NCBI GenBank assembly: GCA_028819845.1
Contig: JAPPKS010000002.1
Location: 78,605 to 142,604, forward strand
Direction: 5' to 3'
Origin: Candidatus Poribacteria bacterium
Lineage (GTDB): Bacteria; Poribacteria; WGA-4E; PCPOR2b
Length of the DNA stretch: 64,000 nt
The stretch's first letter is position 1. Every line of letters starts with the position of its first letter. The notes under the pieces were generated by a model. The model saw only the letters and a list, made by a program, of their open reading frames with translations, did no database searches and was not told where the DNA came from. The translations under genes and the position numbers were made by a program. Below are positions 1,384-57,639 of the stretch, in pieces.

Positions 1384-1444
1384 ATTACTGGCATCAATTG
1401 AACGTGTTACAACTGAGATTTTGCCCGAAAATTGGAGACTCGCT

Positions 1445-2944
1445 ATGAATAAACAGACCGGCCCCGATGCCGCGGATAATCAGATTTCGACACGCCCTAA
1501 CGTCCAGATTTCGGTAAGTAATTTCGGGCCGATCGCAAGTGGCACCGTCGATCTCCGGCCGTTGACCGTATTCGTCGGCCCGAGCAACACTGGAAAAACC
1601 TATTTCGCCACGCTGATTTACGCGTTGTCTCGCCAGCTCGTGTTTGGATTCGCAAGGCTTCCTATCATAAATTGGCGAATCCACAGCGATAGGGACGGCT
1701 TCCAAGATGTTCTCAAAAAATTACAAACCGACGCACGAGCCTTGAGGTTATCGGATTTGCCGGAAGGAGTCCGTAACGTGTGGCAGGCTTGCCTCATGGA
1801 GCCCGACGGTTTGAGCGGACTTCTCAAGACCGAACTCAAACGTTGCTTCGATCTCGAGTCTGTTTCCGGCCTGGTTCGTTTGGCTGGGGGCACCGATGAC
1901 ATGAAACTTTCGCTGCATGTCCGTGAGGAAGGTCAAAATCTCTGGCATTTCAACATGGGAATCTCAAAATCGGGTATCACCGTAGATGGACGAATCCAGG
2001 ACATGGTGCTTTTTCCGCCGGAATCTGCGGCGAATGAACGTTTACAAGAGGTAATCACAAGACGATGGAGCCCCTACTCCCCACGCGAGCACGAATCAAT
2101 GGCTGTGGAGTTTTATGATGCGCTCTTGTACGCCGCCGCTGGCAAACGGACAGAAGCGTATTACCTGCCGGCAGCCCGAAGCGGCATAATGCAAAGCCAC
2201 GCCGTCATCTCCAGCTCCCTCCTAGATCGCGCCACCCGTGCCGGGTTGGAGCGTTTTCCGGAACTCCCGACGTTTTCAGGAGGAATGGCAGATTTCATGC
2301 AGCGACTCATCCTTTACAAAGAGAACGAACGGCGCGGCGATATCATGAAAAATCTTGCTGATGCTCTTGAACGGGACGTACTTGCCGGTGAAATACTAGT
2401 TAGGAGAGCATTTCCAGGCGGATATCCGGAATTCGTGTACCAGCCGCGGAAAACTGAGGAAATCATTCCATTGTCCCGCGCTTCTTCCATGGTCTCAGAA
2501 CTTGCGCCCGTTGTGCTATTTCTCCGCAGCACCGTTGATCGCGGCGATACGCTCATTATAGAGGAGCCAGAGGCTCACCTACACCCTGAAATGCAGGTCA
2601 CACTCACGCGCATTCTGGCGGCTGCCGTCCGGGCTGGCGTCCGCATCATCATGACCACGCATAGCGAATGGGTGCTAGAAGAACTCGCCAATCTGGTACA
2701 AGCCTCCAATCTTACCGAATCTGACAGACGGACAATCACTGGCAGCGGCATTGCCCTTCGTGCAGACGAGGTCGGTGCATGGCTGTTTCAACCCAAGAAA
2801 CGCCCAAAGGGGTCGGTTGTGCAGGAAATCCCGCTCAATTGTGAATCGGGAACCTTCAGTGCTGGTTATGAAAAGGTTGCTGTTGATGTCTATAACCGGT
2901 GGGCTGATATATCCGGTCGGACGAATAAGGGCGGGGACAAATGA
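1445..2944 (+). CDS. AAA family ATPase of pair A (NTGKT-type Walker A)
   Basis: SMC/OLD-like ATPase of 499 residues, predicted cytosolic. Walker A is GPSNTGKT (residues 45-52), Walker B runs into IIEEPEAHLHPE (EEPE about 373-376) and the H-loop is TTHSE (404-408), so all ATPase elements are intact. A TTG-initiated extension to 1421 exists, but ATG 1445 has a GGAGA ribosome site six bases upstream. Its last four bases overlap the start of the next gene (ATGA), indicating translational coupling. The NTGKTY loop and the overall layout match the ATPase at 36307-37737, which also overlaps a small D...ELK protein. I infer a two-gene defence-type module in which the ATPase senses and controls the nuclease-like partner. 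Family membership is firm, the biological role is inferred. Confidence 0.88.
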   Translation: MNKQTGPDAADNQISTRPNVQISVSNFGPIASGTVDLRPLTVFVGPSNTGKTYFATLIYALSRQLVFGFARLPIINWRIHSDRDGFQDVLKKLQTDARALRLSDLPEGVRNVWQACLMEPDGLSGLLKTELKRCFDLESVSGLVRLAGGTDDMKLSLHVREEGQNLWHFNMGISKSGITVDGRIQDMVLFPPESAANERLQEVITRRWSPYSPREHESMAVEFYDALLYAAAGKRTEAYYLPAARSGIMQSHAVISSSLLDRATRAGLERFPELPTFSGGMADFMQRLILYKENERRGDIMKNLADALERDVLAGEILVRRAFPGGYPEFVYQPRKTEEIIPLSRASSMVSELAPVVLFLRSTVDRGDTLIIEEPEAHLHPEMQVTLTRILAAAVRAGVRIIMTTHSEWVLEELANLVQASNLTESDRRTITGSGIALRADEVGAWLFQPKKRPKGSVVQEIPLNCESGTFSAGYEKVAVDVYNRWADISGRTNKGGDK

Positions 2945-3408
2945 GCAATCTCTCAGAAGCTGTCCGCGCGAAGGTATCGGAGGAATGTCTAACGACGAAG
3001 TGCCGAAAGAAGGGGTGTAGCGTACATCTTCCTAACAGCAATCGTCAGTTCATCGTAATTGATATGGACCACTCCAAATCTCCGGCGCCGCAAGACGGGA
3101 CACGTTGCGACTTTCTTTTCATTGGTGAGTGCAACAGCGAAAACTGGGTTGTGCCATTAGAATTGAAGAAAGGCAATGCTAACGCAAGCGAGATTTTACC
3201 ACAACTCAAAGCGGGGGCAATCATCGCGGAACGAATCATTCCTAAGAATGAAAACCTTGCGTTTCGACCCGTGGCTGCCTACGGCGGAGAACTCAAACGG
3301 GCAGAACGAGATGCTTTCAGGGACAAAAGACATAGAGTTAAATTCCGACAACAACGCGAACTTGTGCGCTTAATCAGATGTGGAGTGAGTTTGGAAAAGG
3401 CTCTTTAG
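2941..3408 (+). CDS. Small PD-(D/E)XK-like protein, partner of ATPase (pair A)
   Basis: 155-residue soluble protein with no family name that I recognise. It shows the motif CDFLF (D57), then 17 residues later ELKK (E74-L-K76-K77), then QL at 88-89. This is the usual D...ExK...Q order of PD-(D/E)XK nuclease folds. The N-terminal part contains three cysteines (16, 21, 26) that could bind metal, but the spacing is not a classic zinc finger. The start ATG overlaps the ATPase stop by four bases. The same D-17-ELKK-QL layout occurs in the protein at 35763-36323, also coupled to an NTGKT ATPase. A nuclease role is inferred from motif geometry; DNA or RNA substrate is unknown. After it, 195 bases without a gene precede the convergent radical SAM gene. 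Confidence 0.75.
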   Translation: MSNLSEAVRAKVSEECLTTKCRKKGCSVHLPNSNRQFIVIDMDHSKSPAPQDGTRCDFLFIGECNSENWVVPLELKKGNANASEILPQLKAGAIIAERIIPKNENLAFRPVAAYGGELKRAERDAFRDKRHRVKFRQQRELVRLIRCGVSLEKAL

Positions 3409-17338: not shown

Positions 17339-17342
17339 CGAG

Positions 17343-23600: not shown

Positions 23601-23836
23601 TTCTCGACAACCTTACCCGCCATGCGTTTCAAGATGGTTTTTCGTTCGTCGGCATTGCCGGGATCGGGAAGCAGCGTGGCGATGAGCGCGGCGCGCGCCG
23701 CCGCCAGCGGTCTCCGTGCGGGCCAAATGTGCAGCGTCGAGATATGCCCATGCCGCACATTCTTCTCATGCACCGAATCCAGCGAAACCTCCTTCAACGG
23801 AAAAGCAACTTCTATAAGGCGTTTGTCGTTGGTCAT
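20648..23836 (-). CDS. DUF1156 Zn-ribbon DNA methylase (COG1743)
   Basis: 1062-residue predicted DNA methyltransferase. The N-terminal DUF1156 segment (PLKEVSLDSVHEKNVRHG) is followed by the SAM-binding loop DPFAGGG (132-138). A central zinc-ribbon has Cys at 329, 332 and 345 and a CPRPRC pair at 402-407. The catalytic DPPY is at 639-642 in TDPPYYDAIPY. DPPY indicates exocyclic-amine methylation (N6-adenine or N4-cytosine). ATG 23836 has GGAG seven bases upstream. It is a core member of the DUF499/DUF1156/SNF2 set, where it probably marks host DNA. The gene follows the HSP90-like gene by 44 bases on the same strand, so it is probably in that operon. Confidence 0.93.
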   Translation of the reverse strand: MTNDKRLIEVAFPLKEVSLDSVHEKNVRHGHISTLHIWPARRPLAAARAALIATLLPDPGNADERKTILKRMAGKVVEKTERKRLNGRIVEKTKEVTEGGILHWGRENGEALQWFRDEIRKAYGGRAPKVLDPFAGGGAIPLEAMRLGCEVTAMDINPVAWFILKCTLEYPQKLAGQTRALPEFAVADREFMTSYLKAKGYKSGRLRTALQRLGHGDGNETQLEHLPHDDSLLKANLAWHVRAWGKWVLDKARAELAAYYPTYAEFEPIDPDADFEPAPPQLLAVDKNGVPQIDLLNAAFDDDYLNDVRNPRWIAKPTVAYLWARTVTCKGCRATLPLLKTRWLCKKERKRILLIMEPNADETGVVFGVLTDVPQNGGNSAQRREHDKRIGAGTMSRTGATCPRPRCKAIMTMEDIRLEGRAGRLGAMMTVVVVEGQNGKEYRLPTDHERAVAEVTEEQLGALYADIPFGLPEEPTPKAGIGASRAFSVDGYGFDSWRKLFTNRQLVCLGQFVSKIREADFAVHQHCDNQYWRQAILGILSCGFDRMLDFNSTILSWITSVEAIGHVFVRYALPMTWDYSEAVPYNDVRGGWMMCIAAVCKALETAANATNDHAPVPRVKVGSASSAKHSDTFDIIITDPPYYDAIPYSDLMDYFYVWNRRTIGNTNNGFADVFSKSTGPKWNHDVSDGELIDDAGRFNGDCAVSKENYERGMAESFRRCWEHLSETGRLVIVFANKRPQAWETLVGAVIRSGFVVDGSWPVQTEQSARMRAQTSAALASSIWIVCKKRPPARPGWDHTVLDEMRSNITQQLHDFWDAGIRGPDFVWAATGPALEAYSKYPVVKKATADGDLMSVSEFLREVRRMVVDFVVHRVLPHDGEAEATTELDDVTTYYLLHRNDFKMKDAPVGACILYALSCNLSDTALVNQHDLLTQSGARNADETPESEDDEEAESGSGAKVKLKPWHRRGRRNLGLEAPSGQPVPLIDQVHKLMHLWRAGDQVKVDNYLSDQGLQRNTLFNQILQALIELADEGSDERSILEALSNHVAAQGQVQESGQRLLF

Positions 23837-23880: not shown

Positions 23881-26124
23881 CTATGAGGCTGCTTCTCTCG
23901 GTAACCAGAGTTTTGCAGATAGCAGGTCTATCCATTCGCAATATAGGTGCAACTGTATTGCTTGATCACCAGTAGGCACGAGGAAGGGCTCCAAAAGTGC
24001 AGGAATTGGAAAGTAAATACCTGCAAACATTTCCTGCACTGGTCGTTGAAGTTCAATGGCACCCTCAGTCTGTCCGGGTCTATTAGAATTGGCAATAACG
24101 AGTTTATCAAGGCGGATTTCATACTGAAATGCCGCGCTTACTGCATCTGATGCCACGTAGGTAATCTTGTTTCCCGCCCAGACGACACCGCGGTTGTCAC
24201 AAGCTGGAAGCAGGTCTCCGTACGCCTTAAATGCAGTATCCAGTATGCGAATATAGAAACCATCAATACCTGTAGTTCCTGCTTCATCAACAATGTGAAG
24301 TAGACGCTTTACTTTAGACAGTTTTGGTTCGCTTTGTTCTCCTACCTTAACTTCCTGTACATCGTCACTGGTTACAACGTCGTGCTGTCCGCCCTTGAGC
24401 ACAACACCAATATCATCCTTTACTAATGTCCAAAGTTCTGACCGTCGTTTTGATAACAGTTCGAAATTTAACGCCCCATCACCAAAGAATCTAGGGCTCC
24501 ATTTTTTTAGTGAAGGACCAAGAAACTCCCGACAAAACGTGGATATTAAAGAATAAAGGATGCCCGTGTAACCGAGAACTTCCAACTTGGCAATTTCTGG
24601 GTGTCGAACATCTACGAAAATATCCAATGTTTCACCAAGACCATGCTCCTTCAAGAATACGGGAATGTCTTCAGTAAGCTTGCCAGGAATAAGATGGAAG
24701 TTTTCGACTTCAAAAGATCTTGAAATTGTGAATTCCAATTCACTGAGGAAAATCTTTTCAAACCGCGTTAGGTCTTGATACCGCTCCGAACAATCTATGA
24801 TTCCATCGAATGGTTTTGCCGCACAATACTGTTCGAGGTACTGTCGCTCAGCATCTCGCCGGTATCGGTCAGCCGAAAGTAATACAACCACATGGCCGCG
24901 AGCTTGCATGATTTGATTCAGGGCACGCTTCTGTGTTGTGCCGAAAAATACGACGACACCTTGTTGAGCCTTCCTGCGAATGTCTCCAAGAGAAATTTCT
25001 GATGCATCTGCGAGACGAACCACCGCGTTATCAAGTTTGTTTAACAAACCATTCCTCACCACATATTGAAATATACGAGCATTCTGAACGATACGCTCAG
25101 AACTTCCTAAAACCGTATCAATCGCAATTTTCTCCAACATTAGTACGATGCGGCTGAGCAAACTGGTGGTTTCAGCGTCGGGGGAATCGCGTCCGGCAGT
25201 CGGAACAAAACGATCGCAATCCAAACGCCCTGACACACCTATGGTGCAGCCGATCTGGGTTGCACACAGTTTGAAGCCCCGTTTGAATACATCAATTGAG
25301 CCATTTTGGAATCTAAGACGGCCTTCGAGATTCACAAATTCACCGGCGATACACAGATTCTCTATTGCAGCTACTAGTGTATACCCTCTGTCTTCGAACA
25401 TCCTTCCCGTTATAACAAAATCCCCATCATGCCATTTCTGTGTATTGACTCCGATTGGCGTGAGATTATCTTGGTCATCGACCTGCAAAAACCGCTTTTG
25501 CGAAATTTTCTCGCCATTAAAATGAATCGCTATTGGTACAAAGCGCACAAAATCTGACAAATAGGTTTTAAGCTCATTCACATTTGCGGTTTTGCGCAGG
25601 TTGCCAATCACGACCGTACCCCGAGGTGCAGCAACATTAGACTCTTCCTGACTCACTGACGGAATAGTGTTCGCAGCTGCTCGAATATCTTCCTCTGACA
25701 ATCGTGTGAGTGTTCCTTGCTCGCAATCTTCTGTTTGGGAGATTACCTCTAGCTTCGTGCAAACGCCGAAGTTGGCGAAGCCGCCAATTCCAAACGTGCC
25801 GACACACCCCGCGGACAAGGCTTCTTGGGTCCGCTTTCCGCTGGCGCCAATTGTCCAAAAAAGGTTCTTCAAGTCACTGTCTGACATCCCTATACCGTTA
25901 TCGCGCACGACAATCTTCTTGTCTTTTACAGTGATGTCAATTCTATAACTGTTTGCATTGGGGTTTGCACCCTCACGGTGCGCCTGAATCCGAATCGCAT
26001 CAACCGCATTCTGGACGTTTTCCCGGATGAAAGCGAGCGGTGTTTCGTAAACCTGCTTGGAGATAATCTGAAGTACGCTCTCGAAATCAATTCCTGCCTG
26101 AAACGATGTGTTTTCTTGGTTCAT
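23881..26124 (-). CDS. HSP90-like GHKL ATPase
   Basis: 747-residue GHKL ATPase whose N-terminal ~200 residues resemble HtpG/HSP90: N-box RENVQNAVDA (E35, N39), DNGIGM (75-80) and GTFGIGGF (109-116). The middle carries a HSP90-like module (PRGTVVIGNLRKTANVNELK). The C-terminal half (from about 360) does not look like the dimerisation domain of a housekeeping HtpG and I do not recognise it. It starts three bases after the phosphoesterase stop (ATGAGAGGATAAACAATG), so the two are co-translated. HSP90-like ATPases with non-standard C-termini occur in defence islands. Role here is inferred: a conformational ATPase sensor or chaperone working with the phosphoesterase. Confidence 0.85.
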   Translation of the reverse strand: MNQENTSFQAGIDFESVLQIISKQVYETPLAFIRENVQNAVDAIRIQAHREGANPNANSYRIDITVKDKKIVVRDNGIGMSDSDLKNLFWTIGASGKRTQEALSAGCVGTFGIGGFANFGVCTKLEVISQTEDCEQGTLTRLSEEDIRAAANTIPSVSQEESNVAAPRGTVVIGNLRKTANVNELKTYLSDFVRFVPIAIHFNGEKISQKRFLQVDDQDNLTPIGVNTQKWHDGDFVITGRMFEDRGYTLVAAIENLCIAGEFVNLEGRLRFQNGSIDVFKRGFKLCATQIGCTIGVSGRLDCDRFVPTAGRDSPDAETTSLLSRIVLMLEKIAIDTVLGSSERIVQNARIFQYVVRNGLLNKLDNAVVRLADASEISLGDIRRKAQQGVVVFFGTTQKRALNQIMQARGHVVVLLSADRYRRDAERQYLEQYCAAKPFDGIIDCSERYQDLTRFEKIFLSELEFTISRSFEVENFHLIPGKLTEDIPVFLKEHGLGETLDIFVDVRHPEIAKLEVLGYTGILYSLISTFCREFLGPSLKKWSPRFFGDGALNFELLSKRRSELWTLVKDDIGVVLKGGQHDVVTSDDVQEVKVGEQSEPKLSKVKRLLHIVDEAGTTGIDGFYIRILDTAFKAYGDLLPACDNRGVVWAGNKITYVASDAVSAAFQYEIRLDKLVIANSNRPGQTEGAIELQRPVQEMFAGIYFPIPALLEPFLVPTGDQAIQLHLYCEWIDLLSAKLWLPREAAS

Positions 26125-26127
26125 TGT

Positions 26128-27903
26128 TTATCCTCTCATAGCGTTTTCAATTTGCAGTCGTAGATCCCTGTTACCGGTAGCCTCAACGATTCGTTGGCCG
26201 ATCGCTCCAAAGTAATTCGACTTTTCTGGAAACGTTTTGATACCTTCAAGAATTGTGGAACTAGCATCGTCCATGCGTCCAACATCCATAAGCAGTGTTG
26301 CCAGATTTCCGATGTCGGTGAAGATAACCGAATCGGATTCAATCAGTGACTGGTAGTGTTCAATAGCACTTACTTTGTCCTGCGGTGTGTCCAAATTACC
26401 GAGCGCCAACGCCAACATTCGTTTTGCTTCGTTGACAACCATTACATCACCAAAACTTAAAAGGCGCTCAGCTTTCTCTCGTAGACTGACCCATTCCCCA
26501 GCGTTCGCAAGTTCGTTCAACAGGTCCAGAGTGTGTGAAAACGCCATTTGTGGTATTTCGCCGGCAAGTAACCGGCAATCTCTGTTGTAATTCTGTAAAC
26601 GTTCTTGAAGAATTGAATCTTTGTCACACGCTTCGGTCAAAGCTTCGCCATACTTCCTAATTGATTCGCCGTGCCGCACAAGAATCTCGGATAACAATTC
26701 GCGATTGTATAGGACATCAAGAACGTTCTTGAACGTCATGAATTTGGTTGTCTTTTGTTTCAAATTGGTATTCGGGAGGGTCGTAAAGATGTCAAGTGAT
26801 CCGAATGTGTAACCATTCAGCAATGGAATAAGAAACTCAGCTTTTTGCCCTAGTATTAATGCGGACAGATAATGAACCCAGGGGGCGAGGGAAGGACAGT
26901 ATGCTTTCTTCGCCATGGCGAGTGACTGTATGTCGTACGTCGCAGTGCCTTTGAGTTCAATTTGGAAGTCGTTGACTGTTTCCAGCCAAAATTCTCCGCT
27001 AATTGGGTTGTACTGATAACTCTCTACACTCCTAGTAGCGTGCAGTAAGTCAAGCTTTACGACGTAGTAGGCGTTGCGAGCCTGGCGCGTTTCGAACGAC
27101 GCTCCAGCAACCAACGTCAAGCAACCAGACCGTCCGGCACCATTGACATGTGCCTCTGGTTCATGGAGATGTCCACAATGAAAAAAATGGAATTCCTGTT
27201 CAATTCGGTTCTGAACCGGCTGGCGGTCAAAATCTTGAAGAAAATGGAGCGGGTGATGTGCCATACCTAAGATGAGAGTAGGAGGATTATTTCCTCTTTG
27301 CGCCAATTCAATTGCGCTTATTGCCTGTCGCTCACCAATGAGCAATTTGCCTTGATCATCCGCTCCTCCCTCAGACAGCCACGCGGAATCTAAGCCAACA
27401 ATCGCCAGTTGGATTTCATTGAATTCCAATCGCGATACATAACCGAGTCCGTCGTTGGTCGGGATTCTCTCCTGCCCTGCGAAATACGAATCTTGAAATT
27501 GTCGGTAGTTCTCTTGCCGCAAAAGCAGCGTGTCCAAGTTTTCGCCGCCCGCTAGAAAGCAATCGACCTTGCTAGGTTCACAGACTATGTTGCGGGTTCC
27601 TTGGAAACAATATTTTTGCCGGTCTCGGTCTATATCATGGTTCCCTGCAACGCAAAATATTCGTTCTTTTGGCACGCCTGACGAGGCCTGTAGGCCGTCG
27701 AAGAACTTTTCAGCGAGCGCGTATTCTTCTGACTTCCCCGAAAAAGCGATGTCGCCCGTCACGAGTATAAAATCAGCGACTGTTCCTGATTTGCGCTGTT
27801 CCTCAATATTTCTACACATGGATTTCAGAACAACGTCCTGCTGCCATTCAGTGGTAGCGCGTAAGTGAATATCAGAAATATGAAGCCAGCAGATCGGGCG
27901 CAT
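26128..27903 (-). CDS. Calcineurin-like metallophosphoesterase with helical C-terminus
   Basis: 591 residues. The N-terminal ~310 residues carry every metallophosphoesterase motif: D11-x-H13 (HISDIHL), GD at 50-51, GNHD at 87-90, HH at 216-217 and GHLH at 244-247, so a two-metal active site is complete. From about 320 onwards the protein is helical and TPR-like (for example IEHYQSLIESDSVIFTDIGN and the following helices), fit for protein binding. It is the first gene of a tight pair with the HSP90-like ATPase. Substrate could be a phosphoester in nucleic acid or nucleotide; the sequence does not decide. ATG 27903 is the start; 94 bases separate it from the gene upstream. Confidence 0.9.
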   Translation of the reverse strand: MRPICWLHISDIHLRATTEWQQDVVLKSMCRNIEEQRKSGTVADFILVTGDIAFSGKSEEYALAEKFFDGLQASSGVPKERIFCVAGNHDIDRDRQKYCFQGTRNIVCEPSKVDCFLAGGENLDTLLLRQENYRQFQDSYFAGQERIPTNDGLGYVSRLEFNEIQLAIVGLDSAWLSEGGADDQGKLLIGERQAISAIELAQRGNNPPTLILGMAHHPLHFLQDFDRQPVQNRIEQEFHFFHCGHLHEPEAHVNGAGRSGCLTLVAGASFETRQARNAYYVVKLDLLHATRSVESYQYNPISGEFWLETVNDFQIELKGTATYDIQSLAMAKKAYCPSLAPWVHYLSALILGQKAEFLIPLLNGYTFGSLDIFTTLPNTNLKQKTTKFMTFKNVLDVLYNRELLSEILVRHGESIRKYGEALTEACDKDSILQERLQNYNRDCRLLAGEIPQMAFSHTLDLLNELANAGEWVSLREKAERLLSFGDVMVVNEAKRMLALALGNLDTPQDKVSAIEHYQSLIESDSVIFTDIGNLATLLMDVGRMDDASSTILEGIKTFPEKSNYFGAIGQRIVEATGNRDLRLQIENAMRG

Positions 27904-27997: not shown

Positions 27998-28915
27998 TCA
28001 AAGCGGCAAATGAGGCCCCATATACCCAATCTCGACTTCTCGTGTCGTGGCGTCGAAACGCAGGTGGATTCGGAATCCGCTGCCTATCCGTGCGTGCCAT
28101 TCATACAATTCCCGTGTCCCGCGTCTTGACCTAAATCGGCGCGCATTTAATAACGCCGGGTTGTTTCTAACGCTCTGGCTTTCGGGAGTGACTTTGCATG
28201 CCCAAGGAGGAGCCGGCCCTCCAACAACCCGCCATTCGGCAGCCGATTTGTCAAGCTCGATGAGTCTTCTAATGCCGCTTCCGAGAAATTGCCGCGGTGC
28301 TTTAACATCCGGACCAAAAACTAGATTTGGGAACGCTTCGTCCCGCTGCTCCCATGCTGCCGAAGGGGTTTGCTGTTCAAAGAATGACGTGTGACGGCGC
28401 TCACAAATAGAGTTGGCATGAGTCGATCGGGCGAGGTTATCTATCGTCTCGCTTGCTTCTTCAATACTCTCGTCAGAAAGCAACTCGTTGAACCTGACTG
28501 TGAGCTGGTCACTGTCCCATAAAGAGTCTGAGGGAAAACCAACGGTAATCCAATTCGCAATTGCACATAAGATGAGCGGTTCGCAGTCTTCCGGTGGAAG
28601 TTGTCTGCCTTCACACGCAAAGAATCGAGCCCTTACATTCGACTCAACGTCGCGCAGAAGCGGGTATTTTGAACTTAGACGCATGAGAAACACCGACTCC
28701 TCCCGTGCTCCGATTCTCTTTAAAGATCTAAATGCATCAAATAGTGAAAGGTTTGGTAGGATTACGATTTCGTGCACAGAAAGCCTCATTCGTAGGCTTG
28801 ATTGCGCAATTTTCCGAATCTGAATCATCCCGATAGCGAGGTCCTTCAGCCAGCAAAGCGCAGTATCGTAATCGGGCGCCGTAAGGCTCGCGTGATTCAA
28901 TACCATTTCTCGCAT
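27998..28915 (-). CDS. Unknown protein with RelE-like C-terminal segment
   Basis: About 305 residues, third gene of an operon. I do not recognise the N-terminal 200 residues, which look helical and include conserved-looking VHEIVILPNLSLFDAFR. The last ~40 residues (RELYEWHARIGSGFRIHLR then VEIGYMGPHLP) resemble the core of RelE/ParE/HigB-type RNA-cleaving or gyrase-binding toxins: a YEWH...RIHLRF strand followed by IGYMGPHL. This is a pattern likeness only. ATG 28915 is one base after the ATPase stop (TAATATG). A longer frame to 29008 overlaps the ATPase and is unlikely. It may be the effector of the DUF262/ATPase operon. Confidence 0.65.
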   Translation of the reverse strand: MREMVLNHASLTAPDYDTALCWLKDLAIGMIQIRKIAQSSLRMRLSVHEIVILPNLSLFDAFRSLKRIGAREESVFLMRLSSKYPLLRDVESNVRARFFACEGRQLPPEDCEPLILCAIANWITVGFPSDSLWDSDQLTVRFNELLSDESIEEASETIDNLARSTHANSICERRHTSFFEQQTPSAAWEQRDEAFPNLVFGPDVKAPRQFLGSGIRRLIELDKSAAEWRVVGGPAPPWACKVTPESQSVRNNPALLNARRFRSRRGTRELYEWHARIGSGFRIHLRFDATTREVEIGYMGPHLPL

Positions 28916-28916
28916 A

Positions 28917-30044
28917 TTAGTATTTGGGGGCAAGCAGTTTCTCCAAGTTTTCTTCGTGTTGGTCAAAGAAGCCAGCGGGCCATGTTGAAAGCCGTCCGTC
29001 CTCATCAATTTGCGGTGAAGTCACAACGGTCTCGCCTTCGGGGCGTTCAAAGTAATGGATTGCCGTTTTATCTGGGGAGATTAATCCGTCTCGCACAGCG
29101 ATACGAACCCCGTCCATGAAGTGGTCACTGTGAGTTTCCACAATAACCTGCACGTCAGACAACGATGCGCGCACCGCGAGTTCCGCCAACTTCGTCTGTC
29201 CGCGTGGGTGAAGGTGCGCCTCTGGATTTTCAATCAAACACAATGTACCGGAATCAGACAGCAACGCGATAATTACCGGCAACGTGTACGACAGACCAAA
29301 TCCAACGTTAGTCGCTCGAAAACGCCGCGAAGCAACGTCTCCCGGCCGGTCGAATGAGAAACCTGCGATAAGCGCATCCGCAGCGCGAACAGTCTCTAGC
29401 TGAAGATGAGCGCCGGGGGAAATCTCTTGCAGCCATTCGTCAACGACATCGATCATGCGACGGCTATGGGATTCTACGCAGCGCAAATCGTCTTCCGCCA
29501 GCAATTCATCCTTTTTCATATTTAAGTAGTTCAATGCGTATTCACTTCCCAAACCGAATTCGGCTCGCTGCGCCATGGTTTCGGACAACGGATAGGACTT
29601 TTGCGGGCCGACTCGCTCGGCATCAATATACAGGAGATTTTGTCCAAATGGACGGACATTCTGCCAATCTGGTGGCACTAGGGGAAAATATAGGTTCGAA
29701 TCACACCCTTCGACAGTCAATTGATCGCTCGTTTGTGAATACCCGAACGACAGTTTCCACGGTGAATTGGTTTCGTCAGACTCGATTTCGAAACCTACCA
29801 CATCATTTTCTGCACCTTCAAAAAGTACATCCCTGCCAGTACCGAGATCGGCAAGTTCGCCGCCCAGCACCAGCCTTCCGTCAAGCAAATCTTCTGACTC
29901 AAACGACTGCCGTAGGAGGAGCAGCGCCTGTATCACACTGCTTTTCCCCATGCCGTTCAAACCGCATAGCAGGGTGAGCGGCGCGCAGTTTAAATCCAGA
30001 TTTTCGAAGCACTTGAAATTCGATAACCTGATTTTCCTTATCAT
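28917..30044 (-). CDS. AAA family ATPase with DUF3696-like C-terminus
   Basis: About 375-residue ABC-type ATPase. Walker A GLNGMGKSS lies at about 29-37, the Walker B region reads LCLIENPEAHLHPRG, and the H-loop is ETHSDHFM. The C-terminal ENPEAHLHP form plus a late WPAGFFDQHEENL segment is typical of ATPases with DUF3696. ATG 30044 overlaps the DUF262 stop (TGATG) and follows GAGG by seven bases. It lies between a DUF262 protein and a RelE-like-tailed protein, an arrangement that suggests one functional unit. Confidence 0.88.
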   Translation of the reverse strand: MIRKIRLSNFKCFENLDLNCAPLTLLCGLNGMGKSSVIQALLLLRQSFESEDLLDGRLVLGGELADLGTGRDVLFEGAENDVVGFEIESDETNSPWKLSFGYSQTSDQLTVEGCDSNLYFPLVPPDWQNVRPFGQNLLYIDAERVGPQKSYPLSETMAQRAEFGLGSEYALNYLNMKKDELLAEDDLRCVESHSRRMIDVVDEWLQEISPGAHLQLETVRAADALIAGFSFDRPGDVASRRFRATNVGFGLSYTLPVIIALLSDSGTLCLIENPEAHLHPRGQTKLAELAVRASLSDVQVIVETHSDHFMDGVRIAVRDGLISPDKTAIHYFERPEGETVVTSPQIDEDGRLSTWPAGFFDQHEENLEKLLAPKY

Positions 30045-31519
30045 CACAGCACCTCTGTAACCAACAGTGAAATTGCCTCAAATCTTTTCTTCACTCGGTG
30101 CGGATCGCCCGTGGAATAAGAGATTGCCCTGTCGAATTCACTATCGTCATTCATCAACGCAATGAAGCGATTTATGACATCTTCTCGTTTTTCCACGAGT
30201 CTGTTTATTTCGTCGGAACTGCGGCGTGCCAGTTCGACGCTCCAAGCGTCAAACAGCGCTTTACTGACCGGACGGCGATGGGAATCGTCCAAGTCGTATC
30301 GCTTACGAAAAGATTCGCGGCCAAAAATGCGGTAAGCTGCTTCCATTGCTTTCTCGAAGTCTTCGGCAAGCAACTCAAGATCCTCTGGCGCCGTATTATT
30401 TATTTTGTTCATAACTCGACTAAGATAGCCGTTAAGGTCGTTGTCGTTATATTTTTCCCAAGCATTTGCATAAAAGGCTATGAAGCGCAAAACACATTCC
30501 CGGTCAGCCATTCGGTCTCGCCTAATTGAGTAGTCCGTTGCTTTGCGGAATGCCTCAGTGTCGGCGAGTTGTTTCAGATAGTCTCGCACGAGCCCTGGGT
30601 GTAAAGCATTGCGTATTTCCTGACCGTTCAGCGTCATACCGCCAGTGTTGATTCGGTGGAAAATATTGAACATTACGTCCTCAGGTGTCCCATGATCGAT
30701 GACATTCACCACAAGCTCGCTTTCGCCAATTCGTCGCTGCATTTGCCTCGGAAGGTCGCAATACTTCTTTTTATTGTATTTTTCGAGATATTCCAGATGG
30801 TTCAAGGGAAACTGGTCTGTAACATAGTTGAAAATAGTAAACATGCGTTGGACGCCGTCGACAACCAGCCAATTTTCGTTCTCATCCGCCGCCACATAAA
30901 ACACTGGGATAGGAATTCGTAGAAGCAGCGATTCAATCAGCCGGGATTGACGTTCGGCTTTCCACACAAACGATCGCTGGAAATCGGGCTCTAAATCAAC
31001 CTCGTTATACTTGATTCGAGATACAAGCAATTCGACCGTGATGTTGGTCGTCCGAACCCTTATTTTCTCAGGATTAAACGGACGTTCAATCGTTGGATCT
31101 TCAATTTCGACCTCCAAACCGGTGGCTGGGTCTTGCTTAGAGGCTGCGGCGGTTTTAGATTTATTGGCAGTATTTTCGATCTGTGGTTCGGCCCCCGAGT
31201 TAGAAACTTCTGATAGGGGCGTTTCTGAATTCATTATTGACGGATAGCTCAGGACTTTTTTCATCTCTTGCGGAAGCGACGCTTCATTGTGATGGCGCCG
31301 CCAGTAGTCTTCAAGTGCAGCCCGCCATTCGTCCGATTCGCGAACTCGGTTTGCCTGAGATAATACGTTATGGCTGATGCCGACTCTACCGTCAATGCGT
31401 GGTACCTGTTTGGCAACTTGCAACCACCGCAGCCCCTGAAGCCGTAACCGTATAAGGTCATCTGGATTGACGGGGATGGAATTTCGACGTCCAAGGTACC
31501 CATCATAATACTCAAACAT
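30044..31519 (-). CDS. DUF262 domain protein (ParB/Srx fold)
   Basis: About 491 residues. The DUF262 module starts around residue 150: LEPDFQRSFVWK, then VVDGVQRMFTIFNYV (the usual DGQQR motif as DGVQR), and INTGGMTLNGQEIRNA. The GmrSD and SspE defence proteins share this module, where it binds NTP and drives an effector. The first ~70 residues (LIRLRLQGLRWLQVAK) may be a helix-turn-helix. A 498-residue version could begin at GTG 31540; ATG 31519 is chosen because it has AGGGA upstream. It leads the operon with the DUF3696-type ATPase. Confidence 0.87.
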   Translation of the reverse strand: MFEYYDGYLGRRNSIPVNPDDLIRLRLQGLRWLQVAKQVPRIDGRVGISHNVLSQANRVRESDEWRAALEDYWRRHHNEASLPQEMKKVLSYPSIMNSETPLSEVSNSGAEPQIENTANKSKTAAASKQDPATGLEVEIEDPTIERPFNPEKIRVRTTNITVELLVSRIKYNEVDLEPDFQRSFVWKAERQSRLIESLLLRIPIPVFYVAADENENWLVVDGVQRMFTIFNYVTDQFPLNHLEYLEKYNKKKYCDLPRQMQRRIGESELVVNVIDHGTPEDVMFNIFHRINTGGMTLNGQEIRNALHPGLVRDYLKQLADTEAFRKATDYSIRRDRMADRECVLRFIAFYANAWEKYNDNDLNGYLSRVMNKINNTAPEDLELLAEDFEKAMEAAYRIFGRESFRKRYDLDDSHRRPVSKALFDAWSVELARRSSDEINRLVEKREDVINRFIALMNDDSEFDRAISYSTGDPHRVKKRFEAISLLVTEVL

Positions 31520-31691
31520 TGTCCCGTTGTCCCTTCCCACGCACCTGCGTAGTCATTTGAAAGATAGTCTTTGGTCTCGCGCGAATGGAATAATCTCCGA
31601 ATTTTTCAACTGTTAGTTTCACAAGATTAGAGCGTGTCGTTTCGGTTATTTCAAAAATTTCAACTATGTTGAATGCCAGTGGTTTGACCAT
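31512..31691 (-). CDS. Small hypothetical ORF upstream of DUF262 gene
   Basis: About 59 residues (MVKPLAFNIVEIFEI...), overlapping the DUF262 start by eight bases. Composition is protein-like with alternating hydrophobics, but the ribosome site is weak. Otherwise the 290-base gap between helicase and DUF262 would be empty. May be a leader peptide or spurious. Confidence 0.3.
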   Translation of the reverse strand: MVKPLAFNIVEIFEITETTRSNLVKLTVEKFGDYSIRARPKTIFQMTTQVRGKGQRDNV

Positions 31692-35762: not shown

Positions 35763-36323
35763 TCACTCATCTATCAGACTGCGAAAACGAATTCTTTCTC
35801 CAAACAACATGTCTACCGATATGCCTTTGTGATTCTTCGACGGCAGTGCATAATCTGCCTTGACGTGTTGTTTGTCGAGCCTTTCACTAATCTGATTGCC
35901 GACAAGTGAATAGCGCACAATTATTCTCAGTTTGGTAGATTCACCGCTATGATGTATTTCGCACACGGAACGAAGGTATTCCAAGAACGGGAGCGATCGC
36001 CGTAGCTGCTCCATACCCTTCTCGTTTTCTTCATTTAAAGTCTTCTTCAATTCAACGAATACCGCGTAATCCTCGCCTTCCTCCTCAAAAAGAAAGAGAT
36101 AATCACAAACTTGCTTCCATTCGCCCTCTTTCACCCCCGATAAACTGCCAATGCGCCGCATATTTATTATGGTGATGTCGGAAGGAATATCGGCGACTTC
36201 GAGTTCCATCACGTTCTTTTCTCGTAAAACCGTGCTTCCATCCTTTCTCGGTGACACCAGAGCCTTATCCGCCAGCATATTTTTCAGATGTGTTGCCAAC
36301 ACGACTTTACGCCTCCGACTCAT
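35763..36323 (-). CDS. Small PD-(D/E)XK-like protein, partner of ATPase (pair C)
   Basis: 186-residue soluble protein. The motif CDYLFLF (D74), then exactly 17 residues later ELKK (E91-L-K93-K94), then QL at 106-107. The same order and spacing occur in the protein at 2941-3408 (D57, E74, K76, QL 88-89). Outside these motifs the two are only weakly alike. A basic N-terminus (MSRRRK) and a C-terminal FGERIRFRSLIDE follow. It overlaps the 3' end of the ATPase gene by 17 bases, so it is co-translated with it. Nuclease function is inferred. Confidence 0.75.
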   Translation of the reverse strand: MSRRRKVVLATHLKNMLADKALVSPRKDGSTVLREKNVMELEVADIPSDITIINMRRIGSLSGVKEGEWKQVCDYLFLFEEEGEDYAVFVELKKTLNEENEKGMEQLRRSLPFLEYLRSVCEIHHSGESTKLRIIVRYSLVGNQISERLDKQHVKADYALPSKNHKGISVDMLFGERIRFRSLIDE

Positions 36324-37737
36324 CTGACATTCGCGATGCTAAATCGTTTGCGACCCTGTTAATCCTGTCGATGGTTTCGTCGAAGACCGGCATGTCAATG
36401 CCGAATTTGTCCACCTCGCATCGGATTAGGCTGTTGTCTTGCGCTACGTAAGCACGGATAGAATCCGGGTTGAGGAAGTCTTCAGGGCTGTATTTGAGTT
36501 TCTTCACGACAGCCTCTTTGTTCTCGAATGGTCTACTTAGCATTACGAGGTTGTTAATCTCTTTGATGAGGTAATCGCTGTGCGTGGTTATCAAAACCTT
36601 CAGTCCAGCCCGCACGCACCGCGCCAGTAATCGCGCCAAGAGTATCTGGTTGGACGTGTCAAGATGACTCTCCGGTTCGTCAACGATTAGGAGATGGTTT
36701 TTCTGCGCCGCATGTCGTAAGAAGAAGTAGAGATCGGACAGTCCGCGCGCCGAAGACGAAGCCAGATGCAGCGGTAAGTTGAAACTGCGTCCCTTGCCGC
36801 GCGCCTTGGATATGAAACGAATGTCATCGCCCGAATTTCCGTAGTAGCCGTCCATCATGTCTTTAATGTCGTCAAACAGCTTACTCTCAAAAACCTCGCT
36901 TTTGCTCTCTTGGAGATTGGGAATGTCTCTGGTGTAATCAATATTATCTTTAATTGGAAGTGCGTACCGGCTTGTGGTCTTGTCTATCAATAGAAATGGA
37001 GAAATCCAATCTCTGCTCTTCGCATCGCCCATTTTCTGTAACAGATCGACCAATTGGTTCTTGGTAAAGTCTAATTCCTTGTAGAAAAGGGAGATGCCAA
37101 ACCGTTCAGCGGACAGAATGAGCGGGTCAGGAAACAGATTGTACAGGAGAAGCGAAAAGTAATAGCGCGCGATTTCGGATTCAAAATCTAAAATCTGCCG
37201 CTGGTCTTTTGTTGCATCCACAGCAACGCTAAAATTGCTGCCGTCGTAATCAATTGAAAATTGAACGCCCCCGTGGAGTTCTCCAATGACATTGAAGTAA
37301 CTGCTGGGTTCAGTTTCATTGAGTTCGACCTCAATGGAAGAATCTTTGAAATCGCTGTGGCGAGTGCTAAACGTTAAGCGTAGAGCATCTTTCGAGTAAA
37401 CGCGGGCGAGTTGCTGAATTACTAGCTGTTGCTGCTGGCGAATTTTTTCTCTATCCAAGGAAATGCTCGCTCGACCTTCTCTGCTTACCTCCTCAATAAT
37501 CCACCGTATGTCCGCAAAGTCAGTGTTATGATTCATCGCGTTTTCTAAGAAATAGTCTCCGCGATTCCTGCCTTGCAACATTTTCAGGAAGCCGTAGAGC
37601 GTGTATACTATGTAGGTCTTGCCGGTATTGTTGCGCCCAGCGATGATTGTGAGGTCCCCGATTTCCACTTCCGCGTCCTTGACAGGACCAATATTCTTAA
37701 ATCCAAACGTCGCGGGTTTAGGTCGCTGGCTATTCAT
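36307..37737 (-). CDS. AAA family ATPase of pair C (NTGKT-type Walker A)
   Basis: 476-residue OLD/SMC-like ATPase with Walker A GRNNTGKT (34-41), Walker B LLIVDEPESHLD (DEPE 353-356), and H-loop TTHSD (384-388). It shares with the ATPase at 1445-2944 the NTGKTY loop, a GPV/GPI start and the VRAGL/VRAGV-x-ITTHS run before the H-loop. ATG 37737 has AAGG about nine bases upstream. It sits at the left border of the cluster of small enzymes. Role inferred as the controlling half of a two-gene module. Confidence 0.88.
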   Translation of the reverse strand: MNSQRPKPATFGFKNIGPVKDAEVEIGDLTIIAGRNNTGKTYIVYTLYGFLKMLQGRNRGDYFLENAMNHNTDFADIRWIIEEVSREGRASISLDREKIRQQQQLVIQQLARVYSKDALRLTFSTRHSDFKDSSIEVELNETEPSSYFNVIGELHGGVQFSIDYDGSNFSVAVDATKDQRQILDFESEIARYYFSLLLYNLFPDPLILSAERFGISLFYKELDFTKNQLVDLLQKMGDAKSRDWISPFLLIDKTTSRYALPIKDNIDYTRDIPNLQESKSEVFESKLFDDIKDMMDGYYGNSGDDIRFISKARGKGRSFNLPLHLASSSARGLSDLYFFLRHAAQKNHLLIVDEPESHLDTSNQILLARLLARCVRAGLKVLITTHSDYLIKEINNLVMLSRPFENKEAVVKKLKYSPEDFLNPDSIRAYVAQDNSLIRCEVDKFGIDMPVFDETIDRINRVANDLASRMSDESEA

Positions 37738-46340: not shown

Positions 46341-47075
46341 TCAATACCGCCACTCTTCATGAGCAAGCGGCGCACGGTTGAGTTCATCCCGATAGCTGCG
46401 CCATTGTGGTAGGAACTTGTCCATCAACTCGTGAAACCGGTCGTTATGCTGACGCTCGTGCAGATGCACCATTTCGTGTACGAGGATGTACACCAGACAT
46501 GACTTTGGTTTCTTTGCCAATTCGAGGTTGAGCCAAATCCGTTTCGCTTCAACGTTACAGGAGCCCCAAAGCGTTTTCATCTTTTTAATCCGCGCGTCTT
46601 CGACGGTCACGTCCAGTTTCGATTCCCATTTGCCGATGAGTGGCGGCAACTGGTTACGCAGGTGACGGCGATACCAACGGTGAAGCACCGCTTCCCGCGC
46701 CTTGCGGTCAGAATTCGGACGAACCGTGAGTGTGATATTTTTACTATTGAGCAGCCAGACTTTCGGCGGACGGTCTCGTTCCAGGACTTCGATCCGGTAA
46801 CGTCGACCCTGAAAATAGTGGCTCTCGCCTGTCACAAAAAAGCGTTCCGACTGTCGTTCCTGTTGTTCAAAAGATGTTTTTTGCCGCCGGATCCAGCGCA
46901 ACCGTGTGATGACCGCCATGCGTATAGTGTTATCGTCAAGATTTAAGGGAGTGGCAACTCGGACACGACCGTTCGGAGGGTAGACCCCGATATGTAGATT
47001 TTTTATGTCTTTCCGGACGACCTCTACTGAAATCCCGCGGACATCAATGTGATAACAATCGGGTTTAGTATTCAC
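46341..47075 (-). CDS. DUF45 (YgjP-like) metalloprotease
   Basis: 244 residues. HEMVHLHERQH gives the zinc motif HExxH with a third ligand expected in the downstream helix. Other conserved parts of the family are VATPLNLDDNTIR and WGSCNVEAKRIWLN. DUF45 proteins are very often the last gene of type I R-M loci. GTG 47075 lies inside the end of hsdR (11-base overlap), so it is co-translated. Confidence 0.92.
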   Translation of the reverse strand: MNTKPDCYHIDVRGISVEVVRKDIKNLHIGVYPPNGRVRVATPLNLDDNTIRMAVITRLRWIRRQKTSFEQQERQSERFFVTGESHYFQGRRYRIEVLERDRPPKVWLLNSKNITLTVRPNSDRKAREAVLHRWYRRHLRNQLPPLIGKWESKLDVTVEDARIKKMKTLWGSCNVEAKRIWLNLELAKKPKSCLVYILVHEMVHLHERQHNDRFHELMDKFLPQWRSYRDELNRAPLAHEEWRY

Positions 47076-50000
47076 TCTGATTCACAGCCAGCTTAAGAAG
47101 CGCGTTGACATCCAGGTTAAACTCACTAAATTCTTGCCTAATCACGCGTGTGATAACGTTCTGCACCTGTATCTTCTTGAATCGATTGCTTCTCCAGTCG
47201 TCTTGTTTCGTTTCGCGGATGGCGGCATCAATTGCAAGCGCCGCTGCTGCCCTGCGGTTTTCAGGAAGCTCTTCTAAGTTGTCAAAGAATGCGCGTAATG
47301 GATTGGAATTGATATCGGAAGGATAGCGGTACTGTTTTTCGTGTTCTGCTATTCGCCCGCTGAGGCCTTCGATTTCGAAAAGATATTGACGATAATTTAC
47401 AGCCTTCTGTCGACGTTGGCGAATAATTTCATCCAGCAGATGTGAAATCTCCTCGTAATACCGCGGATTGATATCAGACTTGTCAACGATGAGCCGCCGG
47501 ACGTTGTTTTCGATAGTTGCTGCAATCGCCGCTTCATTGGCGCGAATGGCTTTCGGGAGGAGATTAAGCGCTTCAACGCCATTTTCAACAATTAGCTCCA
47601 CTAAGGGGATGTCGCCAAGTGTTGAGAGTGTCTCGCTCTTATCAGCCCGAATGTATGTATCAATAAGATGCCGCATATCGGGTTCATACGCCTTCAAGTC
47701 AACGTAATCGCCGCTGGCCAGTTTAATTTCTTGACTGACATTATGGTAATGGTTCACTTCGCGCTTAATTTCCTGTGCCTGTGCTTCCGTATAGCCAACA
47801 TCGGTCATATCATTCGCTAGATTGGCATAGGCACGGACGAATGCCGCTGTGAATTTATAGAGATTCTGGCGTTTCGGTGCATTTTCTTTGAGCTGTTCGA
47901 GATTCCCGGCTTCTTGGCCACAAAAATAATGGATATACGCGGCTGAATCGTGTGGCGGTGCCACAGGTTCACACAACGCCTTAACCACTTCGCGCGTCTC
48001 TTCTAATCGTTCTTTTCCTTTTTGGAGTCTGTCCTTAAATAATCCTTGAACATCTTCCGCGTCAAAGTTTTCAAAAGCATCACCGGTGTAATCGGTGACT
48101 GCCTGTTTCAGCGACCGGAAGAGATCCTTATAGTCGACGATATAGCCGAATTCCTTGTCTTCACCGTCGATACGATTGACACGGCAAATCGCTTGAAATA
48201 AACCATGGTCCTGCATATTCTTGTCGATATAAAGGAAGGTTGCTGGTGGTGCATCAAAACCTGTGAGGAGCTTGTCGACAACAATTAGGAGTTTCATCTC
48301 CGCCGGCGCGTCAATGAAGAGTTTTTTAACTTCATGCTCGAATCTATCTGCTTTATTCATCGCAGTGTTTGGTGGTTCCTCAAAGTATTCGGCGAGCATC
48401 TCGCGATAAACATAATACTCCGTCTGTCTATCGGTAAGCCCTTCACCGGTTTCCTCTCTTGCGATGGCATCTACGGAGGGTCTATAGGAGGTTATAATGG
48501 CGCATTTCCCTTTTAACGGTGTTGCTTGGAACAGCTGATAAAAACGGCAGGCGGAAAAGATACTATCTGCAATGAGCATGGCGTTACCTCGTCCGCTCTT
48601 TAGCCTGTCGCGGTCCGCCATGTCAAGGACAATATCGGCGACGATTTTACCTAACCGTTCCCTTGAACTGAGCAAATTTTGCATCGAGCTCCAGCGCTGG
48701 CGGAGTTGTGCTTTCGCCACGTTGGTGAGCCCTTTGGTTCTACTCTCAAACCACGTATCAACGCTTTCCTGAGAGGAGAGAACTTGGTCAATGTCACGCG
48801 CTTCATAACGCAAATCTAAGACGACGTTGTCTACAACGGCTTCATCATACTTGTAAGTGTGGATATAGGGACCGAAGGTTTCAATGCTGCGTTGTTTATC
48901 GCCTTTCAATAGGGGTGTGCCTGTGAAACCCAACAGCATCGAATCGGGTAGCAGCGTTTTCATCGCCCTGTGGAGTTTGCCGGACTGGGTGCGGTGGCAT
49001 TCGTCGACAAAGACGAAGAATTCACCCTTCGGTTGGAAACCGTCCGGCAAATGTTTCTCAATGTCTTCAACGTAGACATCGAAGTCGACAATATCATCAT
49101 CTTCATCTTCTATCTCACCCGATCTACGGAATTTTTGAACGAGTGAACAGACTAGCCGCGCCATGGAATTCATGAGGACCCGCAGAAGATGTGCGCCGCT
49201 CTGTGTCCGCTTAATGTCCTCGTTGACACCCATGAAAACTTTCTCGATTTGTTCGTCGAGTTCGGATCGGTCAGTTATGATGAGTATTCGCGAGTTCGGT
49301 ATTGTTTCGAGGATTGACTTTGCCAGCCAGACCATTGTGAGGCTTTTGCCGCTCCCTTGCGTATGCCAGATAATGCCACCCTCTCTGCGTTTTACATGTT
49401 CCTGTGCGGCTTTCACGCCGAAGAATTGATTATGTCGGCAAATCTTCTTGGTATTTGCGTCGAATACGATGAAGTTGCGCAGAAGTTCAAGGAGTCGGAC
49501 TTTGTTGCAGACTTGGCTGAGTTCTCTGAGCAAAGAATTATCACCTGCATCGGGATGGGCACTCGTCTCTTTCCAACGTAACGAGTGTTTCTCTGGCGTT
49601 TGGATTACGCCGTAGTGTAGGCCTTGCGTTTCGTTTCCTGCCATGACGAGCTGCACAGTGGCGAAAAACCATCCGATGAAATCCTCGCGTTGGTTGGTAA
49701 GATTTTGTCGAAGACCTTCAGATACAGACACAGTTGAACGTTTTAGTTCCAATACACCTATTGCGATTCCGTTAACGTAGAAGACTAAATCGGGACGTTT
49801 GGGGTTTTCGCCTTTCAAGGATACCTCTTCAGCGATGCCGAAATCGTTATTGAACGGGTTCCGCCAGTCAATTAACTTGACGGTGACACGGTGTTTACCG
49901 GTACTGGGTTCAACGTTCACGCCGTAGCGCAACAATCCATAAACCTCGCGGTTTGCATCATAAAGTTTTTTGCTTCCTCCAACTGCGGCACTCTTTTTTA

Positions 50001-50202
50001 GTTCATGGATGCCTTTGGTGATGATGTGTCTCTCGTGTCCTTGCTTTCGAAGCCAGTACGCCAAGTACTCTGAGATTATGTTACTATTATCGTCCATGCT
50101 CTCTGTCCAATTGCCAAGGTATGTATACCCTAACACATCTCTAATAAATGCAATGACGCGTTGTTGCGTGCGTATTTCTCGTTCGCCAACGGTATTCATC
50201 AT
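47065..50202 (-). CDS. hsdR: Type I restriction enzyme R subunit
   Basis: 1045 residues. The N-terminal nuclease has D138 (RPDLVFY) and E152-L-K154 (LELKR), so the PD-(D/E)XK site is complete. Helicase motifs: Walker A TQGSGKS (281-287), VDECHRTQSG as the DECH box, GFTGTPLL and, near the end of the second lobe, QAICRVNRI. The C-terminal region is the usual helical part. It forms the restriction complex with HsdM and HsdS and translocates DNA before cutting. Intact reading frame from ATG 50202, preceded by 232 bases of non-coding DNA after hsdS. Confidence 0.96.
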   Translation of the reverse strand: MMNTVGEREIRTQQRVIAFIRDVLGYTYLGNWTESMDDNSNIISEYLAYWLRKQGHERHIITKGIHELKKSAAVGGSKKLYDANREVYGLLRYGVNVEPSTGKHRVTVKLIDWRNPFNNDFGIAEEVSLKGENPKRPDLVFYVNGIAIGVLELKRSTVSVSEGLRQNLTNQREDFIGWFFATVQLVMAGNETQGLHYGVIQTPEKHSLRWKETSAHPDAGDNSLLRELSQVCNKVRLLELLRNFIVFDANTKKICRHNQFFGVKAAQEHVKRREGGIIWHTQGSGKSLTMVWLAKSILETIPNSRILIITDRSELDEQIEKVFMGVNEDIKRTQSGAHLLRVLMNSMARLVCSLVQKFRRSGEIEDEDDDIVDFDVYVEDIEKHLPDGFQPKGEFFVFVDECHRTQSGKLHRAMKTLLPDSMLLGFTGTPLLKGDKQRSIETFGPYIHTYKYDEAVVDNVVLDLRYEARDIDQVLSSQESVDTWFESRTKGLTNVAKAQLRQRWSSMQNLLSSRERLGKIVADIVLDMADRDRLKSGRGNAMLIADSIFSACRFYQLFQATPLKGKCAIITSYRPSVDAIAREETGEGLTDRQTEYYVYREMLAEYFEEPPNTAMNKADRFEHEVKKLFIDAPAEMKLLIVVDKLLTGFDAPPATFLYIDKNMQDHGLFQAICRVNRIDGEDKEFGYIVDYKDLFRSLKQAVTDYTGDAFENFDAEDVQGLFKDRLQKGKERLEETREVVKALCEPVAPPHDSAAYIHYFCGQEAGNLEQLKENAPKRQNLYKFTAAFVRAYANLANDMTDVGYTEAQAQEIKREVNHYHNVSQEIKLASGDYVDLKAYEPDMRHLIDTYIRADKSETLSTLGDIPLVELIVENGVEALNLLPKAIRANEAAIAATIENNVRRLIVDKSDINPRYYEEISHLLDEIIRQRRQKAVNYRQYLFEIEGLSGRIAEHEKQYRYPSDINSNPLRAFFDNLEELPENRRAAAALAIDAAIRETKQDDWRSNRFKKIQVQNVITRVIRQEFSEFNLDVNALLKLAVNQSEY

Positions 50203-50434
50203 GATAGTTGTCGGTAAGGGGATGCGTCCCTTTCCGATATCAGTTTGCTGTTATGGTTGTCATTTTTTCGGATTTTTTTTGGTAAAGCATCGGGAATCGG
50301 AGTTCACCGCAACAAAGAAGTGTCAGCCGTCAGTTGATGCCTAAGGGTGATAGGTATAAAGCAGCACACTGCCCACATACAACATTTTCTCACAGGAACG
50401 CAGGGAGAATAATATTATTGAATAAAGGTCTTTG
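50203..50434. other. hsdR-hsdS gap without a gene
   Basis: 232 bases between two genes of the same operon. No plausible coding sequence or REP is visible. A T-rich run and a GGGTGATAG stretch are present but nothing clear. Confidence 0.5.
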
Positions 50435-51691: not shown

Positions 51692-51692
51692 T

Positions 51693-54272: not shown

Positions 54273-54333
54273 AGTTGGATGCACCGTGATTAATGGGATT
54301 TTGGGATTTCCTAGTTTTTTTCTTGAACATCAT

Positions 54334-54405
54334 TTAGGGGCTGCTTCTGGCGCGGTTTAACCACTCTCGCGGATCATTGGGCGCAAATCGTTCAGGCGGC
54401 TTCAT
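54334..54405 (-). pseudogene. HEPN partner remnant
   Basis: ATG 54405 overlaps the end of the nucleotidyltransferase gene, as in intact MNT-HEPN pairs. It encodes 23 residues, KPPERFAPNDPREWLNRARS and three more, resembling the N-terminus of HEPN proteins (NDPREWLNRAR), then hits a stop. The rest of the HEPN domain is not found downstream. Confidence 0.55.
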
Positions 54406-54718: not shown

Positions 54719-54808
54719 AAACTGACATTACTCCAGCCTTGCCATCTATTTTAATCACACCCCACCATTCAATCCCACGCATCACAGTTCAGACAATCTC
54801 CCTGCGCG
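54719..54808. repeat. Duplicated 5' flank of nucleotidyltransferase copy 1
   Basis: The bases upstream of copy 1 (CCATTCAATCCCACGC.ATCACAGTTCAGACAATC) recur upstream of copy 2 at about 55318-55358, showing that gene and flank were duplicated together. Confidence 0.6.
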
Positions 54809-54816
54809 TCTGCAGT

Positions 54817-57630: not shown

Positions 57631-57639
57631 TCTGCACCT

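Follow-up and report, generated by a model that had tools for sequence, protein, structure and literature searches.

An ATPase-nuclease gene pair in a poribacterial defence island, a probable anti-phage operon of the PD-T4-4/WonAB family

Introduction

A 64,000-nucleotide stretch of contig JAPPKS010000002.1 (hereafter the window), from the sponge-symbiont-like bacterium Candidatus Poribacteria bacterium, carries two gene pairs in which an ATPase gene is followed by a gene for a small protein with PD-(D/E)XK-like residues. The preliminary description regarded the second of these, pair C, as a diverged copy of the first, pair A, and took the presence of two copies, both with overlapping gene ends, as an argument for a real functional module. 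This raises the questions of whether the two pairs are related beyond a few shared residues, whether such pairs are conserved elsewhere, and whether pair C is a new kind of module or belongs to a kind already described.

Two experimentally studied systems are relevant here. PD-T4-4 was isolated from E. coli via selection against T4 and protects against phage (Vassallo et al. 2022, PMC9519451), and its domains are given as PD-(D/E)XK and AAA (PMC10952713). WonAB, from the WASA-1 prophage of Vibrio cholerae, consists of an OLD-ABC ATPase and a variant PD-(D/E)xK nuclease and blocks ICP1 (Adams et al. 2025, PMC12137116). Neither of its genes is dispensable, nor are the ATPase motifs and the ExK lysine; residues K34, R182, E300 and H333 of WonA (Walker A Lys, OLD Arg, Walker B Glu and His, respectively) are essential, and WonB is toxic only with active WonA (PMC12137116). 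WonAB aborts infection, translation being stopped and genomic DNA left intact (PMC12137116). The same paper groups WonAB, PD-T4-4 and the in silico class 'OLD-ABC ATPase + novel REase' (Krishnan et al.) into a single larger family, in which ATPase sensors are combined with nuclease effectors.

Results

The genes of both pairs and their neighbours are listed in Table 1. All residues that had been pointed out in the two small proteins are present: D74, E91-L-K93-K94 and Q106-L107 in that of pair C, when it is read from the ATG (35763-36323, minus strand; this numbering is used throughout), and D57, E74-L-K76-K77 and Q88-L89 in that of pair A. The motif NTGKTY is common to both ATPases (residues 37-42 and 56-61), and so is the VRAG-x-ITTHS-like run, in which VRAGLKVLITTHS is matched by VRAGVRIIMTTHS. 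The overlap of the gene ends is found in pair A, whereas pair C has it only if translation starts from the ATG at 36323, a codon lacking a Shine-Dalgarno sequence. The alternative GTG start is preceded by a GGAGG, and in the closest relative (L004/L033) the GTG, the GGAGG and their spacing are all kept and the ATG is absent. The pair C nuclease is therefore probably translated from the GTG rather than the ATG, which leaves a 4-nt gap, and the two genes probably do not overlap.

Table 1 Features of the window, with positions counted from its first nucleotide
Feature	Position	Strand	Remarks
HEC-01-like ATPase	43-1179		PADLOC
ATPase of distant paralogous pair A	1421..2944	+	BLASTP 3e-19 vs pair C ATPase; PD-T4-4_A 2.3e-35
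Nuclease of pair A	2941..3408	+	4-nt overlap (ATGA) with its ATPase; PDC-M47B 7.7e-6
HmaC	10386-13688		PADLOC; Hma components interleaved with other genes
HEC-01A/B	16688-18614		PADLOC
HmaB	20648-23836		PADLOC
GHKL/Hsp90-like ATPase	23881-26124		Between Hma and Nsn genes
Metallophosphatase-like protein	26128-27903		PDC-S60 1e-42
NsnA/NsnB/NsnC	27998-31540		PADLOC
HmaA	31810-35418		PADLOC
Nuclease gene of pair C	35763..36302	-	PD-(D/E)XK-like (predicted); 179 aa from GTG start; 186 aa if ATG at 36323
GGAGG ribosome-binding site of pair C nuclease	36312..36316	-	Inside ATPase gene end; 9 nt upstream of GTG 36302
ATPase gene of pair C	36307..37737	-	476 aa; OLD/PtuA-like ABC ATPase, PD-T4-4_A/PDC-M47A type
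Complete type I R-M system	47065-54284		PADLOC
Ppl-like PHP/SMC protein	57640-60507		PADLOC

Pairs A and C lie about 33 kb apart in one defence island, and their ATPases are homologous (BLASTP E = 3e-19). With the small proteins BLASTP gave only a marginal alignment of 22 residues (3e-5), too weak to decide, and profiles were used instead, built from 29 sequences for the pair C family and 25 for the pair A family. The two nuclease families aligned in hhalign with E about 3e-9 to 6e-9 and a probability of about 96%, compared with 0.06-0.65% for 20 column-shuffled versions of A and 0.97% for a reversed alignment. When the 4.6 Mb genome was searched with the pair C nuclease profile, the sole other match was the pair A nuclease (E 7.9e-5). 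The shortness of the direct alignment could be taken to mean that pairs A and C are alike by chance or convergence only, which is hardly conceivable given homologous ATPases, a profile-profile similarity beside shuffled controls of at most 0.65% probability, and the recovery of the one nuclease by the profile of the other; the earlier argument against chance is thus borne out, together with the profile-level similarity on which it depended. Motif conservation was scored by alignment columns, as a regular-expression count missed many pair A members. By columns, the triad D74-E91-x-K93 is invariant in 29/29 relatives of pair C, and among those of pair A E and K are invariant (25/25) and D is found in 23/25. 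The spacing of 17 residues between D and E, noted earlier in both proteins, is the usual one, but it is not fixed, since 18-19 also occur in relatives.

The pair C ATPase matches Pfam AAA_15 (7.3e-22), the PADLOC profiles PD-T4-4_A (PDLC04033; 6.1e-107, residues 11-468 of 476) and PDC-M47A (5.7e-90), and AriA (4.6e-25); the Pfam search found no Toprim domain in it. The Walker A lysine K40, R212, S327/S328, E354 and H386 are invariant or nearly so, and across 101 ATPases drawn from both types of pair K40, R212, E354 and H386 are kept in 98-100%. Judged from these motifs the protein is an ATPase of the OLD-like ABC class, with the ABC motifs and the OLD-type deviations, including the conserved Arg and His. 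An AlphaFold2 model (pLDDT 79.7) gave PtuA, of Septu and retrons, and Rad50 as the best Foldseek matches (E about 1e-8).

The small protein was modelled with pLDDT 88.8 and pTM 0.88. In the model D74 opens a strand (75-81), E91 and K93 lie in the strand 84-95 and Q106 in the helix 98-109, a predicted placement of D, ExK and Q as in PD-(D/E)XK enzymes. The match of the protein to PDC-M47B (2.9e-9) extends over about 60% of that profile, and its direct match to PD-T4-4_B is weak (8.4e-4 over 64 residues). The profile of its family aligns at E about 1e-14 (hhalign) with the group that holds a bona fide PD-T4-4_B, a protein of an E. albertii plasmid (L097; 5e-107). It matched no Pfam model, HNH included, and no NCBIfam model above the cut-off, and it passed no curated family cut-off; HSDR_N was weakly matched by 3/30 nuclease members. 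Sequence searches of solved structures gave no significant match, and Foldseek with the model gave none at E <= 0.001 among PDB and viral structures, the weaker PDB list including the PD-(D/E)XK proteins FokI, BamHI, AddAB and a hantavirus endonuclease. As no PDB fold was matched at this level, the assignment as a predicted PD-(D/E)XK-like nuclease is based on the motif, the predicted topology and profile homology. In the pair-C-type F group from other genomes of the phylum (L006-L032), 17/25 predicted nucleases have E-x-Q in place of E-x-K, D, E and the downstream Q being kept. The restriction enzyme BglII has a similar ExQ site.

Loci of this type were collected from 85 genomes of the phylum, a GTDB-wide scan, and plasmid and phage records. 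The GTDB-wide scan gave 33 loci, in Poribacteria, Acidobacteria, Latescibacteria, Chloroflexi, Nitrospirota, Gemmatimonadota, Gammaproteobacteria, an archaeon and others, and a scan of viral_contigs gave one distant locus. Pairs were also found on small plasmids of E. coli and Klebsiella, on an Enterococcus plasmid and, beside CI, in a P2-like Vibrio phage. A nuclease is present adjacent to the ATPase in 101 of the 104 fetched loci, a few of which are the window's own pairs; in the three exceptions (L017, L074 and L089) the first nuclease codons are kept and then break off, leaving stubs. Starting from the nuclease, 59/62 matches in the 85 genomes lie downstream of an ATPase match, on the same strand and within about 0.5 kb. 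One of the remaining three is a weak fragment and two are near contig starts, their ATPase probably being on another contig. This neighbourhood survey places the pair in many phyla, on plasmids and in a phage, contrary to the refuting result named in the preliminary description, a lack of conservation of the pairs elsewhere. The divergence of the two partners is correlated (Mantel r = 0.89 over 84 pairs; 0.62, 0.76 and 0.73 within groups), which supports co-inheritance and is no proof of interaction.

The pair C ATPase shares 60-61% identity with copies from Acidobacteria, Chloroflexi and Latescibacteria, as against only about 35% with the majority of those from its own phylum, and has therefore probably moved horizontally. 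Several carriers with isolate names of the types RHO, CAR and STY look, from these names, like the sponge metagenome-assembled genomes of PMC8163846, in which sponge symbionts were described as enriched in defence genes.

Some further features of the collected loci may be mentioned. In the Vibrio phage 1.202.O (Peduoviridae; L099) the pair has the CI repressor on one side and a DNA breaking-rejoining enzyme on the other, and on very small enterobacterial Col-type plasmids of 4.3-4.8 kb (L096/L098) it accounts for a large share of the coding sequence. The pair A type of ATPase is strongly amplified in the phylum, notably in genomes of family f4 (e.g. G026, G027), with matches in 75/85 genomes and as many as 19 among the matches listed for one genome. 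L042, L044, L068, L086, L017, L074 and L089 show a frameshift or truncation in the nuclease beside an open ATPase frame, which suggests that the cost of the pair lies in the nuclease, assembly errors being another possible cause. A candidate fusion of the ATPase with the nuclease (L025), located at a contig end, was left out as a probable frameshift.

According to PADLOC, defence genes are densely packed in the window, which makes it a defence island (43-3408, 6472-35418 and 46341-60507; Table 1). The genes of the GHKL/Hsp90-like ATPase and the metallophosphatase-like protein in it are 3 nt apart and in the same direction, and they may form another two-gene unit.

Discussion

Pair C belongs, as far as can be judged by homology, to an already described defence family, the 'OLD-ABC ATPase + novel REase' class, and is not a new kind of system. 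The preliminary description was right that an ATPase with a PD-(D/E)XK-like partner forms a real module related to pair A; it missed that the kind was known (PD-T4-4, WonAB, PDC-M47), and it read too much into the overlap. With PD-T4-4 the pair shares an ATPase of the AAA_15 type and, after it, a small PD-(D/E)XK-like protein, adjacent and on the same strand in the window as in 101/104 loci, the full-length ATPase match (6.1e-107) and the alignment of the nuclease families (E about 1e-14). It differs in that the nuclease itself matches PD-T4-4_B only weakly (8.4e-4), and enterobacterial PD-T4-4_B proteins often have D-x-K in place of E-L-K and are about 20 residues longer. The likeness to WonAB, judged from its published description, lies in the gene order, in the roles of K40, R212, E354 and H386, which correspond to K34, R182, E300 and H333 of WonA, and in a separate small protein with a variant PD-(D/E)xK site, the lysine of which is essential in WonB; WonB is smaller (16.1 kDa). 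Pair C thus fits the description of an ATPase sensor and nuclease effector given by the authors of WonAB. Both subunits match PDC-M47 (A 5.7e-90, B 2.9e-9), the B match being partial, about 60% of PDC-M47B, and PDC-M47 being a PADLOC candidate system only.

In PARIS (AriA/AriB), Septu (PtuA/PtuB) and Gabija/OLD a related OLD-like ABC ATPase also controls a nuclease, and PtuA is the nearest solved structure to the ATPase model. The effector of PARIS, OLD and Gabija is, however, of the Toprim type (AriB, OLD, GajA), whereas pair C has a PD-(D/E)XK motif and, by Pfam, no Toprim domain, neither the DUF4435 nor the OLD C-terminal nuclease, and it was not assigned to these systems. Nor was it assigned to Septu, in which the partner is the HNH protein PtuB, as the small protein of pair C has no HNH match.

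We consider it very likely that pair C is a two-gene anti-phage operon of the PD-T4-4/WonAB family, in which the ATPase gates a nuclease effector and the outcome is abortive infection. The OLD-like ABC ATPase would dimerise on ATP and would act as sensor and gatekeeper, holding the small PD-(D/E)XK nuclease as effector. Upon infection the ATPase would license the nuclease, which would then halt the cell, most likely through cleavage of host RNA on which translation depends, and the phage would be unable to finish. That the ATPase activates the nuclease and that translation arrest is the outcome is inferred from WonAB (PMC12137116), and RNA rather than DNA is the substrate that we infer for the nuclease. 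In favour of a defence operon we counted the homology, the invariant triad, the strict pairing, the mobile copies, the correlated divergence, the defence-island context and the published results on PD-T4-4 and WonAB; against it we counted the weak PD-T4-4_B score (8e-4), the curated cut-offs, none of which was passed, and the fold search without a PDB match.

The pair could instead target DNA directly, the ATPase recognising phage DNA ends or replication intermediates and the nuclease cutting phage DNA so that the host survives, as with the Gabija and OLD nucleases. PD-(D/E)XK folds mostly cut DNA, the weak fold matches include FokI, BamHI and AddAB, 3/30 members weakly match HSDR_N, and 7/11 PD systems with DNA-cleaving-like domains gave direct immunity (PMC9519451). 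However, WonAB, the one relative studied mechanistically, arrests translation without damage to genomic DNA (PMC12137116), and Septu, to which the nearest solved structure PtuA belongs, is reported to cleave tRNA-Tyr (PMC13096335). Direct DNA targeting is thus possible but on balance rather unlikely.

A simple toxin-antitoxin system, with the nuclease bound and neutralised by the ATPase, is improbable. The tight two-gene operon with a small putative toxin would suit it, as would the three loci that have lost the nuclease and kept the ATPase, and by our count in the genomes of the phylum the nuclease was never seen without the ATPase. The WonAB nuclease, however, is toxic only with the ATPase present and active (PMC12137116), which rules out simple sequestration in that system. 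A DNA-repair pair of a Rad50/RecF-like ATPase and a nuclease, with no defence role, could be read from the Rad50 match in Foldseek, but it is very improbable considering the patchy distribution with relatives in other phyla closer than most in the same phylum, the plasmid and phage copies, the defence-island neighbours and the PADLOC match to PD-T4-4_A (6e-107).

Within the defence family pair C may, as a tentative reading, represent a separate clade that has passed by horizontal transfer between environmental and sponge-associated phyla (Poribacteria, Latescibacteria, Chloroflexi, Nitrospirota, Gemmatimonadota and Acidobacteria). It would have a trigger or RNA target of its own, and it would coexist with pair A because each answers different phages. 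An uncharacterised and widely shared pair is here placed in a defence family the mechanism of which has only begun to be worked out. It is an ordinary but solid addition to this family and opens no new kind of system. Two modules about 33 kb apart, alike only at the profile level, provide a natural comparison for testing which signal the ATPase senses and which substrate the nuclease cuts, and the alignment points to K40, R212, E354 and H386 of the ATPase and D74, E91, K93, Q106 and K151 of the nuclease as the candidates for mutation.
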